A stretch of 32,982 nucleotides of DNA from a virus. The position numbers and the translations under genes were made by a program. The DNA lies in the IMG/VR virus record IMGVR_UViG_3300030329_003260, positions 1 through 32,982 of that record, one strand, 5' to 3'. The notes below the pieces were generated by a model. That model had not been told where the DNA came from, did no database searches, and saw nothing but the letters and a program-made list of their open reading frames with translations. Positions 14,604-20,037 of this stretch are shown here, one piece after another (position 1 is the first letter of the stretch; every line of letters starts with the position of its first letter).

Positions 14604-14633
14604 TTAACTTTTTTAGGATAATTTATGTATAAT
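14604..14633 (+). promoter_or_regulatory. Candidate rightward promoter 1
   Basis: TTAACT (14604-14609) and a consensus -10 TATAAT (14628-14633) are separated by 18 bases. A TTGACG at 14590-14595 is too far from this -10. Transcription would begin near 14640, about 108 bases before the amidoligase start. Confidence 0.4.
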
Positions 14634-14662
14634 ATTTTGTCAAAAAAAATTGACGAAAGTTC

Positions 14663-14691
14663 TTGCACGGGAATGCCCTATTGCTTAATAT
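14663..14691 (+). promoter_or_regulatory. Candidate rightward promoter 2
   Basis: TTGCAC (14663-14668) and TAATAT (14686-14691) are 17 bases apart. The start would be near 14698, leaving a 50-base leader with AAGGAG at 14733-14738 before the amidoligase ATG. Confidence 0.35.
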
Positions 14692-14747
14692 TATGTATGA
14701 ATTATGACACTCAAACAAACAAAACAAAAAATAAGGAGAAAAATGTT

Positions 14748-15659
14748 ATGTTTCGTTCATTTAATAATAATAGAGGTTTTGGAATTGAAATCGAATGTAT
14801 TGCAAACCAAAGCAGAAATGAAGTCGCTACAATAATTAGTAATGCAGGTGTACCTTGCGTTGCTGAAGGTTACAACCACTCAACTAGAGACCATTGGAAA
14901 ATAGTAACTGACGGTTCTGTAAGTGGTTCAGGGAATGCGATGGAAATTGTTAGCCCTATATTAGTAGGTCAAGATGGTAAACTTGCACTATCAGTAGTTT
15001 TAAGTGCTTTAAATAATACTGACGGTCTTGTAGTTGAAGTAAACAGAAGTTGTGGGATTCACGTTCATCACGATTTGACAAGTTGGAGAGAGTCTGCTAG
15101 AGCAGTTTTTGCCAATAATATGAATAACCTAGTTTCTTTAATTGCAAAGTATGAACACTGCTTGTTCAAACTTTTACCTGCATCAAGACAAGGTCAGTGG
15201 AGTTCTCCCGTAAGAAGTATTATGACTAGATATGCTACTAACGATACTATGACTTATGCTGAGAGAACTAAAGAGATGAAGAGAGTTCATAGAAGACGCT
15301 CAGTTTCAAGTATTCAGAACACTCGTTACTGTGGATTGAATCTTCAAAATCTTTTTGGTAGAGGTTCAGTAGAGTTTCGTTATCATCAGGGTTCAACTAA
15401 TTTTAACAAGCTTTGGAATTGGATTGTTTTCACCCAAGCTTTTGTTGAAACTGCTGAAATCAAAAAGTCAATATCTTACACCGATTCAATGACTCGTATT
15501 TCTTGCAACTCAGCACTTAGTCGCTTACGTTGTGATTTAGGACTAAGGAAAGCTGACAACTGTGAAGAGTTAAAAGCTTGTGATATTGAAATCAAAAGAC
15601 GTTACCATCATTACAAGAATGTTAGAGTTTCAAACTCAATCATTCGCAACGGACAATAA
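14748..15659 (+). CDS. Amidoligase (glutamine-synthetase-fold COOH-NH2 ligase)
   Basis: A 303-residue enzyme. GFGIEIECI (residues 10-18), KIVTDGSVSGSGNAMEIVSP (51-70), CGIHVHHDL (102-110) and GRGSVEFRYHQG (204-215) match the Amidoligase_2 family, in which acidic, His and Arg residues hold ATP and metal as in gamma-glutamylcysteine ligases. Such enzymes join a carboxyl group to an amine with ATP. The ATG at 14748 is chosen because AAGGAG lies nine bases before it; an upstream in-frame ATG at 14625 has none. It opens the rightward operon, directly before a glutamine amidotransferase that could supply ammonia. Substrate is unknown: a peptide, cell-wall piece or protein are all possible. Confidence 0.8.
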   Translation: MFRSFNNNRGFGIEIECIANQSRNEVATIISNAGVPCVAEGYNHSTRDHWKIVTDGSVSGSGNAMEIVSPILVGQDGKLALSVVLSALNNTDGLVVEVNRSCGIHVHHDLTSWRESARAVFANNMNNLVSLIAKYEHCLFKLLPASRQGQWSSPVRSIMTRYATNDTMTYAERTKEMKRVHRRRSVSSIQNTRYCGLNLQNLFGRGSVEFRYHQGSTNFNKLWNWIVFTQAFVETAEIKKSISYTDSMTRISCNSALSRLRCDLGLRKADNCEELKACDIEIKRRYHHYKNVRVSNSIIRNGQ

Positions 15660-15670
15660 GGAGAAATATT

Positions 15671-16573
15671 ATGTGTGGATTAGCAGGAGTAATTTTAAAA
15701 GATAAAAGCAGGTCAAAGGTTGACCTGCTAGGTGTCAGAGCAGGTTTTGAATCTGCTCTAACGAATGCGAGAGTTCGTGGAACTCACGCAACGGGTTATG
15801 CAAAGATAGATTCATCAGGAAAGCACGAGATAGTTAAGCGAGACCTAGATGCGACTAACTTTGTAAATAGGTTCGGTGAGTATCTAAAAAGCATAAGTTC
15901 GATTGACAAACATACTACGGTTCTTATGGGTCATACTCGTTATGCAACTCAGGGAGAACCTGAAATCAATCGCAACAACCATCCTATCAGAGCAGGGAAG
16001 ACCATTGGTACTCATAATGGATGGGTCTCAAATGACGATGAGCTATTTGAACATTACAACCTAGAGCGATTTGCTGAAGTTGACTCAGAAGTTATTTTCA
16101 GAATGGCAGATGACTCAGATACAGTTGATGAGTTTGTCAATAATCGCTTTACGAAAATTCGTGGAAGAGCGACTATTGTGTGGACAGATATTGAACGACC
16201 TGAGTATGTGTACCTACTTAAAGGAAATAATCCTTTAGAGGTAGCATATAACAAGAAACTAGAGCTATTGGTTTATGGTTCGACTTGGGATATTATTAAA
16301 GACTCGTTTCCATCTGAGGATATTGAACGTATGGTTACTAAGGAAAATCACCTATATAGAATCAATACTAAAACCTTTAAGATTAGAGCGACTAAGGTTG
16401 CTTGTAATTTTTCAGGACTTGATAGATTCTTGTATAAAAGTCCTCAGAAAAAAACTGTTTACCAAAACACGGTTAAACGGTTTGTGCCAGTTTTCACCAA
16501 TAAAGACCGTCAGGAAAAATTGTTTAAGAATGTGAAAGCATCTGATGGTTCAACGATAAGGAGAATCAAATAA
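15671..16573 (+). CDS. Class II glutamine amidotransferase
   Basis: A 300-residue Ntn hydrolase. After Met comes Cys2 (MCGLAGVIL), the nucleophile freed by Met removal. Further motifs are RGTHATGYA (36-44), GHTRYATQG (87-95), NNHPI (102-106), GTHNGWVSN (113-121) and VDSEVIF (137-143), the full set for glutamine binding and ammonia release. No synthase domain is attached, so the ammonia or glutamine-derived group must go to a partner, probably the amidoligase twelve bases upstream. AAGGAG before the ATG and a TAATG overlap with the next gene show it is part of a tight operon. Confidence 0.9.
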   Translation: MCGLAGVILKDKSRSKVDLLGVRAGFESALTNARVRGTHATGYAKIDSSGKHEIVKRDLDATNFVNRFGEYLKSISSIDKHTTVLMGHTRYATQGEPEINRNNHPIRAGKTIGTHNGWVSNDDELFEHYNLERFAEVDSEVIFRMADDSDTVDEFVNNRFTKIRGRATIVWTDIERPEYVYLLKGNNPLEVAYNKKLELLVYGSTWDIIKDSFPSEDIERMVTKENHLYRINTKTFKIRATKVACNFSGLDRFLYKSPQKKTVYQNTVKRFVPVFTNKDRQEKLFKNVKASDGSTIRRIK

Positions 16574-16950
16574 TGAAACGAGTTGAAATGCGATTCCTAC
16601 TTCATAACCCTGATGGATGGTTGGAGTCTAAGTTTGACGAGGTTAACGAGAATCTTCTTGGTATAGAGGGATGGATAGATTGCTATTTGAAGGATAAGAA
16701 GTGTGGTCTTTGTAGGGGCAAGTTTAACAACTTGCTCCATCAGACCAAAGTTACCAAATCTGAATTAGCAAAAGCCTTTAGGTTGTATAAAGTTTATGTT
16801 TGGGTTTTGATGAAAACGGGAAAAAGTTTAACAAGAGAGAGGTTAGGAATATATGTGAGCGAGAAGAGAAGTATTAAGTCTCAAAAATTAGCTCATCACC
16901 CTAAGTTGGGAGTGTATTTAAAGGAGAAATCTGATGACCAAGATAATTAG
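16573..16950 (+). CDS. Hypothetical protein with Cys pair, amidoligase operon
   Basis: A 125-residue basic protein. It has KKCGLCRGKFNNLLHQTKV (residues 42-60), a possible C-x2-C knuckle, then aromatic helices (AKAFRLYKVYVWVLMKTGK). No family is recognised. The ATG overlaps the amidotransferase stop by one base and its own stop falls inside the deformylase start (17-base overlap), so it is made together with both. It might be an adaptor or substrate of the modifying enzymes, but nothing shows this directly. Confidence 0.6.
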   Translation: MKRVEMRFLLHNPDGWLESKFDEVNENLLGIEGWIDCYLKDKKCGLCRGKFNNLLHQTKVTKSELAKAFRLYKVYVWVLMKTGKSLTRERLGIYVSEKRSIKSQKLAHHPKLGVYLKEKSDDQDN

Positions 16951-17479
16951 AGAAGACCATAACCTTTTGCACAAGGTCTGTGAGCCTGTTTCTGTCAGAC
17001 AAGGAAACAAGATTGCAAAAATCCTGATTGACAAAATTAAGGCAAATAAACCTATTTGCGTAGGTCTTGCAAGTAATCAAATTGGTTATGACAGAAGTGT
17101 CGCAGTGGTTGATACGGACGATTCTAAGACTCCTATTATCCTGATTAATCCCAAGATAGTTGAGAAGAGCAATCCACTGAAACCTTTTAAAGAGGGATGT
17201 ATGAGTTTTCCTGATGTCGAAAAAAGTATTGTCAGATACGGGTATATAAAAGTTGAAACCGATTTAGGTCTGATGGAATTTGGATGCAAAGACAGACCTG
17301 ATAAGAAAAAATACTTTACTGCGATTGCCGTTCAACACGAGATAGACCACCTGAACGGATTGACGATTCACGATAGAGCTTTAAAACCACGCACCGTGAA
17401 TAAGATTGGTCGCAACGATAATTGTCTTTGTGGAAGTTTGAAAAAAGCTAAGAAGTGTTGCAGGGTATATGATTTCTGA
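16934..17479 (+). CDS. def: Peptide deformylase with C-terminal SEC-C zinc motif
   Basis: Residues 1-150 carry the three deformylase motifs: GLASNQIG (44-51), EGCMSFP (87-93) and QHEIDHLNG (134-142). Cys89, His135 and His139 bind the metal and Glu136 is the catalytic base. The enzyme removes formyl from new protein N termini. Then GRNDNCLCGSLKKAKKCC (159-176) is a SEC-C type zinc motif (C164, C166, C175, C176), unusual on deformylase. SEC-C elsewhere binds partners such as SecB or acts near ribosomes. Phage deformylases are known from marine phages. AAGGAG precedes the ATG. Confidence 0.9.
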   Translation: MTKIIREDHNLLHKVCEPVSVRQGNKIAKILIDKIKANKPICVGLASNQIGYDRSVAVVDTDDSKTPIILINPKIVEKSNPLKPFKEGCMSFPDVEKSIVRYGYIKVETDLGLMEFGCKDRPDKKKYFTAIAVQHEIDHLNGLTIHDRALKPRTVNKIGRNDNCLCGSLKKAKKCCRVYDF

Positions 17480-17537
17480 TGGAGAGCGAGTCCTGAGTAT
17501 GACTTTAAAAAAGACTCTTGTTTGTTAGAGCGAAACG

Positions 17538-17573
17538 GTGTCCGTTGGGTTTCCTTATTGACCTGACGGACAC
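17538..17573 (+). terminator. 8-bp stem-loop after deformylase gene
   Basis: GTGTCCGT (17538-17545) and ACGGACAC (17566-17573) form a perfect stem with a 20-base loop, with a short GGGT/ACCT stem inside. TTTGTTATTG follows, a weak T stretch. It lies in the only larger gap of the operon (131 bases, otherwise empty of genes) and may end transcription after the deformylase or attenuate expression of the histone-like and downstream genes. Confidence 0.5.
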
Positions 17574-17610
17574 TTTGTTATTGTAAGAAATAATTGACTA
17601 GGAGTAAATT

Positions 17611-17814
17611 ATGATTCAAAAAACCAAAGTAAAACAGGCGTTTAATAGGAAAAAAATCCAAATTAATGTTGATGCACTAAACCTGATTGAGAGACGATTC
17701 TCAAGAATGGTTGATATGTGGTCTGATAATGCCAAAAATGGAAACGTAAAACGGGTTACTGCTGAAACCGTGCATCTTGCTTTTGGAGACCTTGAAAGAT
17801 ATATAGGGAGTTAA
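17611..17814 (+). CDS. Histone-fold DNA-binding protein
   Basis: A 67-residue protein. KTKVKQAFNRKKIQIN (residues 4-19) parallels the first histone helix, VDALNLIERRFSRMVDMWSD (20-39) the long middle helix and NAKNGNVKRVTAETVHLAFG (40-59) the loop with Arg-Thr-x-x-x-x-(V/I)xxA, as in archaeal histones (GRKTIKAEDIELA) and bacterial histones. TAGGAG lies before the ATG. It would bind or coat DNA as a dimer or larger complex, perhaps phage DNA during early infection. Note: the middle helix is a few residues shorter than in archaeal forms, and the tails are absent. The next gene starts right after its stop (TAAATG). Confidence 0.6.
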   Translation: MIQKTKVKQAFNRKKIQINVDALNLIERRFSRMVDMWSDNAKNGNVKRVTAETVHLAFGDLERYIGS

Positions 17815-18396
17815 ATGAAATTATTTGTTTATGGAACGTTAAAACGTGGAGGAGTATTGCACCATCATTTAAACGGGTGCGAATATTATGGAGTTGATAA
17901 AATCTCAGGATTTTCAATGTATCAACTTGGATGGTTTCCTGCTGTTAAAAATACAGAAGATGAGAACGAGACCATCTACGGAGAGATTTATGAGGTTGAT
18001 AGGAGAGTCTTAAAGCAGATAGATAAAATTGAGGGAAAGGGAGTTTTGTATGAACGAAATAAATGCAAAACAAGGCACGGAGACTGTTTTATTTATGTTT
18101 ACAAAAACGATGAGAACACTTTAAAGACTTGGGATTATCCAAAAGTTCCATACGGGTTTTTTGAGATACCAAATAAAAAATGGAAAATCACCATTGGAGA
18201 CGATTTGTATAAAGGAGATTCATCTAAGGTTGTTTTTGATATGAGATTTTTCGATACGTCAGCAGGACGGTGCGATACTAATAAGCAGTATATGAGATTA
18301 TATAAAGAGAGAACGTGGGATTTAGACATAAATACGAGCTTAGAGAGTGTGTTCCTGACCGACTTAATGATACAATGTAATTTAGAGGAGATATAA
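17815..18396 (+). CDS. Gamma-glutamylcyclotransferase/AIG2-like protein with C-terminal extension
   Basis: A 193-residue protein. VYGTLKRGG (5-13) and IDKIEGKGVLYER (69-81) are the glycine loop and the catalytic Glu (E73) region of the gamma-glutamylcyclotransferase fold, with IYGEIYEVD (54-62) between. This family splits gamma-glutamyl amides, releasing 5-oxoproline. After residue about 105 an 85-residue segment of unknown fold follows (KVVFDMRFFDTSAGRCDTNK), not normal for AIG2-only proteins. In a phage operon with an amidoligase it could remove or edit the ligase's product. AGGGAG precedes its ATG. Confidence 0.75.
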   Translation: MKLFVYGTLKRGGVLHHHLNGCEYYGVDKISGFSMYQLGWFPAVKNTEDENETIYGEIYEVDRRVLKQIDKIEGKGVLYERNKCKTRHGDCFIYVYKNDENTLKTWDYPKVPYGFFEIPNKKWKITIGDDLYKGDSSKVVFDMRFFDTSAGRCDTNKQYMRLYKERTWDLDINTSLESVFLTDLMIQCNLEEI

Positions 18397-18398
18397 AA

Positions 18399-18632
18399 AT
18401 GCCATTTCCATTTAGTTTTGAAGAGCGATTTGTTGGTAAGAGCTTAAAGGATGTAATCGAAAGCACGGGATTGAAACAAAGATTTATTGCTAAAAAAATC
18501 GGAGTTTCTGAAACAATGTTTTCGCATCAAGTTGCAGGTCGCAGGAAAATGACAAAAGAGCAAAAAAGAACATTAGCTAAAACGTTAAAAGTAAGAATCA
18601 GAGATATAATGAAACTTACTAAGTCTGAATAG
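18399..18632 (+). CDS. XRE-family helix-turn-helix regulator
   Basis: A 77-residue protein with KDVIESTGLKQRFIAKKIG and VSETMFSHQVAGRRKMT, a Cro/C1-like helix-turn-helix (helix 2 and 3 around residues 26-45). GAGGAG lies before the ATG. It is the last gene of the rightward operon and its 3' end overlaps the end of the convergent adhesin gene by 14 bases, so transcripts from both sides would meet. It may control one of the promoters at 14.4-14.7 kb. No lysogeny integrase was seen, so a simple early-late switch is more likely than a prophage repressor. Confidence 0.75.
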   Translation: MPFPFSFEERFVGKSLKDVIESTGLKQRFIAKKIGVSETMFSHQVAGRRKMTKEQKRTLAKTLKVRIRDIMKLTKSE

Positions 18633-20037
18633 TTACTTTGGTTTGGTAGCGATTGTGGGAGATTTCTTGAAATTCCATCGGTTCAACCAATCCATAGTTA
18701 TAAACATTATCAAACGTATAAATCATTTTATAAGTATTTGCATTTTTAGATAACGTTTCAAATTCTGCCTTCAAAGAGGACGAGATATTCGAGTAGTTTC
18801 TTATTATTCGCTTTGTCTCGTCCTTTGTTTTATATATGTATTCAGCACCGTTTAGACTCTCAGATTGCTTGTTGTCAAAAACGGAATCATAGCTAGAACC
18901 CACATCATATCTAATCTCAGGAATGAACTCATCTCCAATCAGAACCTCTCCGATTTTTGAATCAGCACTAAGACTCTCACACTGAACTCCGTAATACCTA
19001 TAGTTGGCATCAAACCGAATTAATGTCCATCCGAGAGTTGAATCGAACCCCGAACCAATGCTTGTCCACCCTGAACCCTGCGAATTACTGCCGTAAAATT
19101 CTAAATTTCCACTGAGCGAAACGTTAAGATGCACTGCAATAAAACTTATTGTCTTTTGTGAGCCTAAATCAAAAACAACGCAAGATTTATTTGATGCTGT
19201 ATTTTTAAAAGTAGCACTCAAACTTGCATTCCCATCTATTAGAGCAGACGGATTTAAAACTGCTGAAGTGTTGCTTGTAAAATTCCCACCCGTAATAGTT
19301 CCCCGTAATATTGTAGAATCTTTTAATCCGATATTGTCATAAAAATAAATGTCGTCTGATATTCCAATCGAAATTGAAAAATTATCTCCAACCGTAAGAG
19401 TCTCAGAATTAGATTTTATTATTTTCCAATCGTCAACTGCTCTAGTAAGAGCGTCTGAAGATTCTACGGTATCGCTTGGAGTTAAATAGTATTTCCATCG
19501 TTCTACGTTTGTTGAAAATGTTTCTGAAAATGAGATTGAGTCTGATGGAGTGTGTGCTTCCCTCCATATTTCTGTCGCTCTAGTTAGAGAATCGGATATA
19601 CTCAGACCCATACTGTAAGATAAAATATGTCTCCAAGTATCCACTGCTCTCGTGAGACTGTCGCTATTGGTTATGGTGTCAGATAAAGAAACCGTCGTTC
19701 TGTAAGAAGAGACCGACCTGCTAAGACTATCTGATGTGTTAACCGAATCAAGTGATAGTGCGACAACCTCTCGCCACGTATCTGTAGCTTTTGTGAAACT
19801 ATCGCTTAAAGATAATGAGTCTGATAGACTTCTGACAAATTTCCAATCACTAACACCCCTTGAAAGCGAGTCTGAAGTATATACAGCATCTAAGGATAGT
19901 GTAAATGTTTTTCGCCAAGTCGAAACCGATTTAGTAAAAGAATCGGAGGTCGAGATACTATCTGAATGACTAAAAGTTTTAGTCTCAGGGAGTCCTGTAA
20001 TAGTAAAATAATCTGAATAATCGGTTAAATTAGGCAT
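18619..20037 (-). CDS. Tail adhesin with 23-residue repeats and a discoidin-like domain
   Basis: A 472-residue protein, last of the leftward tail block. Residues about 21-227 contain eight imperfect repeats built on SDSLTRAVDTW-like units; aromatic residues stand at 41, 65, 88, 112, 135, 158, 181 and 204, so the period is 23-24. Residues about 245-385 (VVFDLGSQKTISFIAVHLNV, LEFYGSN) resemble an F5/8-type (discoidin) carbohydrate-binding fold. The end (NRYQTKVTIQT) resembles the end of the 124-residue tail protein at 21350-21724. It is probably the host-binding tip: repeats as a spacer, discoidin as ligand binder, C-terminal part docking to the tail. Confidence 0.65.
   Translation of the reverse strand: MPNLTDYSDYFTITGLPETKTFSHSDSISTSDSFTKSVSTWRKTFTLSLDAVYTSDSLSRGVSDWKFVRSLSDSLSLSDSFTKATDTWREVVALSLDSVNTSDSLSRSVSSYRTTVSLSDTITNSDSLTRAVDTWRHILSYSMGLSISDSLTRATEIWREAHTPSDSISFSETFSTNVERWKYYLTPSDTVESSDALTRAVDDWKIIKSNSETLTVGDNFSISIGISDDIYFYDNIGLKDSTILRGTITGGNFTSNTSAVLNPSALIDGNASLSATFKNTASNKSCVVFDLGSQKTISFIAVHLNVSLSGNLEFYGSNSQGSGWTSIGSGFDSTLGWTLIRFDANYRYYGVQCESLSADSKIGEVLIGDEFIPEIRYDVGSSYDSVFDNKQSESLNGAEYIYKTKDETKRIIRNYSNISSSLKAEFETLSKNANTYKMIYTFDNVYNYGLVEPMEFQEISHNRYQTKVTIQT
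19357..19977 (-). repeat. Tandem 69-72-base repeats in adhesin gene
   Basis: About eight diverged coding copies of a 23-24 codon unit. The common core is S-D-S-(L/F)-(T/S)-(R/K)-x-V-x-x-W. Spacing of the conserved aromatic is 24, 23, 24, 23, 23, 23, 23 residues. Such a tandem tract could gain or lose units by recombination and change fibre length. Confidence 0.75.

Follow-up and report, generated by a model that had tools for sequence, protein, structure and literature searches.

A SecA-type SEC-C module in place of helix alpha3 in a recurrent family of phage peptide deformylases

Peptide deformylases (PDFs) of type 1B, such as E. coli Def (1bs4, 1xen) and B. cereus Def1 (1ws0), carry a C-terminal helix, alpha3, that binds the ribosome tightly (PMC5591237). 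In the E. coli enzyme, the contacts with uL22 are made by L149, K150, R153 and K157 (PMC12690207). The phage-encoded PDFs of Vp16 (5mtc) and S-SSM7 (3uwa) have the same fold, lack alpha3 and end shortly after the third catalytic motif, and viral PDFs have been stated to lack the ribosome-binding C-terminal region (PMC5591237). The SEC-C module is known from other proteins. The C-terminal MBD of SecA and the C-terminus of YchJ (1sx0, 1ozb, 9l6b) share the pattern GRN-x-x-C-x-CGS-x-x-K-x-K-x-CC, and there the module sits on a translocation ATPase or an orphan protein. A small zinc module that places an N-terminal processing enzyme on the ribosome is known for yeast Map1 (MetAP1), whose zinc fingers lie beside eL22 (PMC10118133). 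This case offers an analogy only, because Map1 is an unrelated, eukaryotic enzyme and its unrelated zinc fingers are at the N-terminus.

Here we describe a PDF gene in a viral sequence of 32,982 nucleotides (IMG/VR record IMGVR_UViG_3300030329_003260; the whole stretch is called the window below). Its product shares the catalytic fold and the three motifs of the type 1B enzymes (Z about 21, 29-37% identity), and it resembles the Vp16 and S-SSM7 enzymes in being phage-encoded and in missing alpha3. Unlike either group, it has a SEC-C module at the alpha3 position, so that a module known from SecA and YchJ is found on an N-terminal processing enzyme. Full-text searches did not uncover any paper describing a PDF-SEC-C fusion (subscription papers lay outside their coverage); the single paper in which both terms occur deals with Streptomyces synteny. 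The architecture thus appears to be undescribed in the searchable literature. PDF-SEC-C sequences are probably already present in databases, however, because a BFVD entry with the annotation Def (A0A6J5MA12) matches our PDF-SEC-C model from one end of the model to the other and is probably another case.

The enzyme, its C-terminal module and the gene setting

The sequence-only reading that preceded this work had proposed a PDF with intact catalytic motifs, followed directly by a four-Cys SEC-C element. Each part of that proposal was confirmed by profile and structure comparisons (Table 1). The metal ligands (one Cys and two His) and the motifs G.GLA..Q, EGC.S and HE.DH are all present, and motif I departs from the usual GLAAPQ only at neighboring residues. 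Conservation of H135, E136 and H139 in the relatives described below was imposed by the search pattern. The NCBIfam model TIGR00079 scores the protein at 100.6 bits, slightly below its cut-off of 103.95. A PDB search with the enzyme part returned B. cereus PDF1 as the first match, and VIA-align places residues 1-153 of an AlphaFold model, built from a 101-sequence alignment, onto residues 2-149 of E. coli PDF. Judged from these features, the enzyme is intact and is predicted to be an active deformylase.

Table 1. Features of the PDF-SEC-C gene and its 3′ flank (positions in the window)
Feature	Residues	Position	Strand	Remarks
PDF-SEC-C gene	181 aa plus stop	16934..17479	+	AlphaFold model pLDDT 93.3
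Peptide deformylase catalytic domain	2-151	16937..17386	+	PF01327, E 4.1e-30 (Pfam)
Catalytic motif I, GLASNQ	44-49	17063..17080	+	Q49 invariant in 101 aligned sequences
Catalytic motif II, EGCMS	87-91	17192..17206	+	E87 and C89 invariant in 101 aligned sequences
Catalytic motif III, QHEIDH	134-139	17333..17350	+	H135, E136 and H139 present
Short variable linker	152-157	17387..17404	+	alpha3 missing here; family linker dN/dS 0.267
SEC-C motif, IGRNDNCLCGSLKKAKKCC	158-176	17405..17461	+	PF02810 above cut-off; PDB matches YchJ-C and SecA
Intrinsic-terminator-like hairpin		17537..17574	+	3′ of the PDF-SEC-C gene; 15 pairs, then TTGTTATT; dG -28.6, z -5.0

The tail matches PF02810 over residues 160-176 at 22.1 bits against the curated cut-off of 20.4, and it carries the CxC...C[CH] ligands as C164, C166, C175 and C176. 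When used alone in a PDB search, it retrieves YchJ-C (9l6b, E 2.4e-5), SecA (1sx0, 4.8e-4) and the SecA-SecB complex (1ozb, 0.006). Among its kind the module of the window is a weak member, with SLKKAKKCC in place of SGKKYKKCC. It is predicted to bind one Zn or Fe ion. We considered whether the tail could be a product of chance or of a frameshift. The gene is a single open frame from ATG to TGA with no frameshift, and the tail is not such a product because the four Cys residues, CGS, K171 and K173 are all retained in six near relatives (overall identity 46-58%). Furthermore, N161, S168 and K171 are invariant in 101 aligned family sequences, and none of these residues was required by the search pattern.

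No helix of at least four residues follows residue 148 in the AlphaFold model, where the last helix listed spans residues 145-148. The C-terminal helix of type 1B enzymes is absent, and it is likewise absent from a second model made for a distant family member of the CLTW/HEINH clade (pLDDT 95.3). The superposition on the E. coli enzyme stops at residue 149 of that enzyme, where the uL22 contacts begin. In the family as a whole, 17-34 aa (mode 26-27) separate HExDH from the first Cys of SEC-C. This leaves no room for alpha3, which has roughly 18 residues, because the core accounts for about 12 of the gap residues and SEC-C for 6. Two scans for a longer linker (gap of 37-57 aa) returned three stretches, all of them out of frame and none of them a PDF, and so gave no true case of SEC-C appended behind a complete alpha3. 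The PDFs of 18 bacterial genomes mostly have ordinary tails, often basic ones, at the position taken by SEC-C. The short gaps, the empty long-gap scans and the two models lacking the helix together indicate that SEC-C stands in place of alpha3, and never as an extension after it.

The gene is preceded immediately by AAAGGAG, a strong Shine-Dalgarno-like sequence, and overlaps the upstream ORF (16573-16950) by 17 nt. It closes a plus-strand run of genes for an amidoligase (Amidoligase_2), a class II glutamine amidotransferase (GATase) and a 125-aa ORF, after which the strong terminator-like hairpin follows. A 67-aa ORF, a gamma-glutamylcyclotransferase and an HTH protein complete this plus-strand island (14625-18632), which is flanked on both sides by minus-strand structural genes and is a possible peptide-modification cassette. 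The PDF-SEC-C gene does not appear to be a regular part of the amidoligase-GATase-GGACT block, as homologues of the block genes were found near none of the other PDF-SEC-C loci. The genes that recur beside those loci are phage genes particular to a lineage, and no theme of translation is evident among them. Separately, the phage tail region encodes a 472-aa protein (18619-20037, minus strand) whose N-terminal half repeats a SDSLS..DSF(T/S)(K/R)(A/S)V..W(R/K) segment.

Distribution, selection and origin of the family

A search for related loci with the single window protein as query gave no match. A DNA pattern, HEx[DN]H joined to CxCG...C[CH] across a gap of 16-36 aa, was scanned through IMG/VR in both codon halves. 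The scans returned 60 and 113 stretches. In 170 of these 173 viral stretches the pattern is in frame, within PDF-like proteins that end in SEC-C, and the contigs measure 4-545 kb. The fusion is also encoded by a huge phage, LR745206 (634 kb). Adding five cases to the IMG/VR set (the window, LR745206 and three loci from the genome collection) gave 135 distinct full-length proteins, and all 101 members of the non-redundant set match both Pfam families, with SEC-C at E ≤ 0.01. PDF-SEC-C is a recurrent phage family rather than a one-off.

Among bacterial and archaeal genomes (84,980 species, scanned in the CAC half of codon space), there are three true fusions. Two are on contigs of one Omnitrophota MAG, and the third is on a Marinimicrobia-binned contig, where a terminase-like gene adjoins it. 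With 170 viral cases against these three, the architecture is essentially a phage one, for genomes within the half of codon space scanned. The remaining in-frame genome matches are mostly small His-rich SEC-C proteins, many of them from Pseudomonas. They include a recurrent type, HEHDHxHxH... proteins ending in SEC-C (L184-L238), found in Pseudomonas, Stutzerimonas and relatives, and these are probably metal-handling proteins.

To place the family among viral PDFs at large, viral contigs were also scanned in a tail-blind manner (EGC[x]S to HExDH, GAA/TCN codons), which yielded at least 120 stretches. Among the 120 listed, 118 are new and none of these has SEC-C; the other two, including L068, were already in the set. 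On this count from the 120 stretches listed, SEC-C is present on about 2% of viral PDFs. A sample of these enzymes (L288-L405) is arbitrary in that the codons chosen and the order of the scan decided its composition. Of its 115 PDFs, 92 end in a basic tail of 16 aa or longer, and 14 are essentially tail-less. The literature describes viral PDFs as lacking a ribosome-binding C-terminal region (PMC5591237), a statement that therefore fails for this sample. The sequence-only reading had likewise held that phage PDFs are usually short and lack extra domains, which, given these 92, is only partly right. As far as can be read from these proteins, phage PDFs have three kinds of ending, namely a helical-looking basic tail, nothing, or SEC-C. 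In the SEC-C family the tail has a median net charge of +6, which resembles the +8 of tails in the remaining viral PDFs. Two candidate members, from Caulobacter phage Cr30 and Myxococcus phage Mx1, were set aside; their alignments reach into the tail, yet the tails are basic and are not SEC-C.

Selection was estimated from 60 independent pairs of family members after removal of the codons imposed by the search. The dN/dS values are 0.140 (0.122-0.159) for the core, 0.267 (0.215-0.320) for the linker and 0.114 (0.085-0.144) for SEC-C. Purifying selection clearly acts on the SEC-C tail and is no weaker there than on the core.

A tree of the PDF core groups 47 of the 63 SEC-C rows, along with three rows that lack SEC-C, in one large clade (SH-aLRT 97). 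A second SEC-C clade has 13 rows (SH-aLRT 99), and the others form a pair and a single. Despite these separate clades, we did not adopt a scheme of several independent origins, as the AU test (p 0.81) does not reject a single origin of all SEC-C rows. Of the three large-clade rows that lack SEC-C, two (L299 and L243:854-1522, plus strand) have a Cys-free IGRN tail. The tails of L299, L341 and L243 keep IGRN or FGRN and continue with a Cys-free module (IGRNERVTITDGKETKELKWKKAQPLVESGDWEM); that of L341 was grouped with the others by reading. Pfam gave no SEC-C match in the L299 and L243 tails, and the PDB gave no match for the L243 tail. The Cys-free IGRN tail looks like an exchanged module. One further protein (L121:2481-3317, minus strand) is a PDF-SEC-C whose N-terminal addition (residues 5-55; Pfam GTP_EFTU, E 1.5e-10) is similar to the opening 50 residues of the GTPase domain of EF-Tu. 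It could be a three-part fusion, or else an artefact of assembly or of start-site choice.

A possible substitute for the ribosome-binding helix

The sequence-only reading had suggested that the tail could bring the enzyme to the ribosome or to a partner protein, and by analogy with SecA this suggestion is plausible. The binding partners of the SecA MBD include 70S ribosomes and SecB (PMC6620043). Because this related module binds ribosomes and because SEC-C occupies the alpha3 site, we consider it moderately probable that SEC-C is a substitute ribosome dock. In an infected cell, an intact phage PDF with a SecA-type module where alpha3 was would most likely take the formyl groups off nascent proteins of both phage and host. 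Its SEC-C module, which is basic and would fold around a single Zn or Fe ion, would attach it to the large subunit of the ribosome close to where the tunnel ends, and this dock would be used instead of alpha3 in the uL22/bL32 groove. Some observations weigh against docking. The isolated SecA MBD has low affinity for ribosomes, and SecA without its MBD still binds them (PMC6620043). Moreover, ribosome docking is not strictly required, because the Vp16 PDF is functional in vivo without any tail (PMC5591237).

It is unlikely that the tail instead tethers the enzyme to SecB or to some other SecA-like client site, which would direct it to chaperone-held nascent export proteins rather than to the ribosome. 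PDF substrates are very short nascent chains, and the enzyme acts before SecB clients normally form. The match of the tail to the SecA peptide in the SecA-SecB complex is what SecB docking would predict, as is the need of E. coli SecA for its MBD in SecB binding (PMC6620043), and an interaction between YecA and SecB has been reported in unreviewed work (PMC6620043, PMC8076867). However, many bacteria without SecB retain the SecA MBD (PMC6620043), and PDF-SEC-C phages are widespread.

We give a lower probability to SEC-C serving as a structural clamp, in which a metal-stabilized C-terminus would brace the PDF core without any partner. A precedent exists in Vp16 PDF, whose C-terminal residue (Ile137) locks the active form (PMC5591237). 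In PDF-SEC-C, though, the linker is the fastest-evolving part and is variable in length, which would be expected of a module on a tether more than of a clamp packed against the core, and the conserved Lys, Arg and Asn residues agree with the SecA MBD motif. Least probable is a nucleic-acid- or metal-binding module with some role other than specific docking (metal supply, or binding of phage mRNA or rRNA), for although SEC-C is found on many unrelated proteins and its ligand in vivo was reported to be Fe in work cited in PMC8076867, strict placement at the alpha3 site is unexpected of a general-purpose module.

If SEC-C is indeed a substitute ribosome dock, a broader scheme can be put forward tentatively, and we hold it to be possible rather than probable. 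A phage-specific PDF lineage might have swapped alpha3 for a SecA-type metal-binding module and thereby moved to a different docking site on the ribosome. The enzyme could then work beside, and not against, host PDF, MetAP and trigger factor, and it may benefit the phage by prioritizing phage nascent chains. The exchanged tails within one clade (SEC-C and the Cys-free IGRN module), together with the one EF-Tu-like N-terminal addition, would make these PDFs a platform of interchangeable docking modules.

Since viral PDFs have been said to lack the ribosome-binding region, the manner in which tail-less phage PDFs reach nascent chains has been in question. A SecA-type module located exactly at the alpha3 site makes it possible to ask, directly and cheaply, whether SEC-C is a ribosome-docking domain that can be moved between proteins, a question that matters for SecA, YecA and YchJ and for the takeover of translation by phages.
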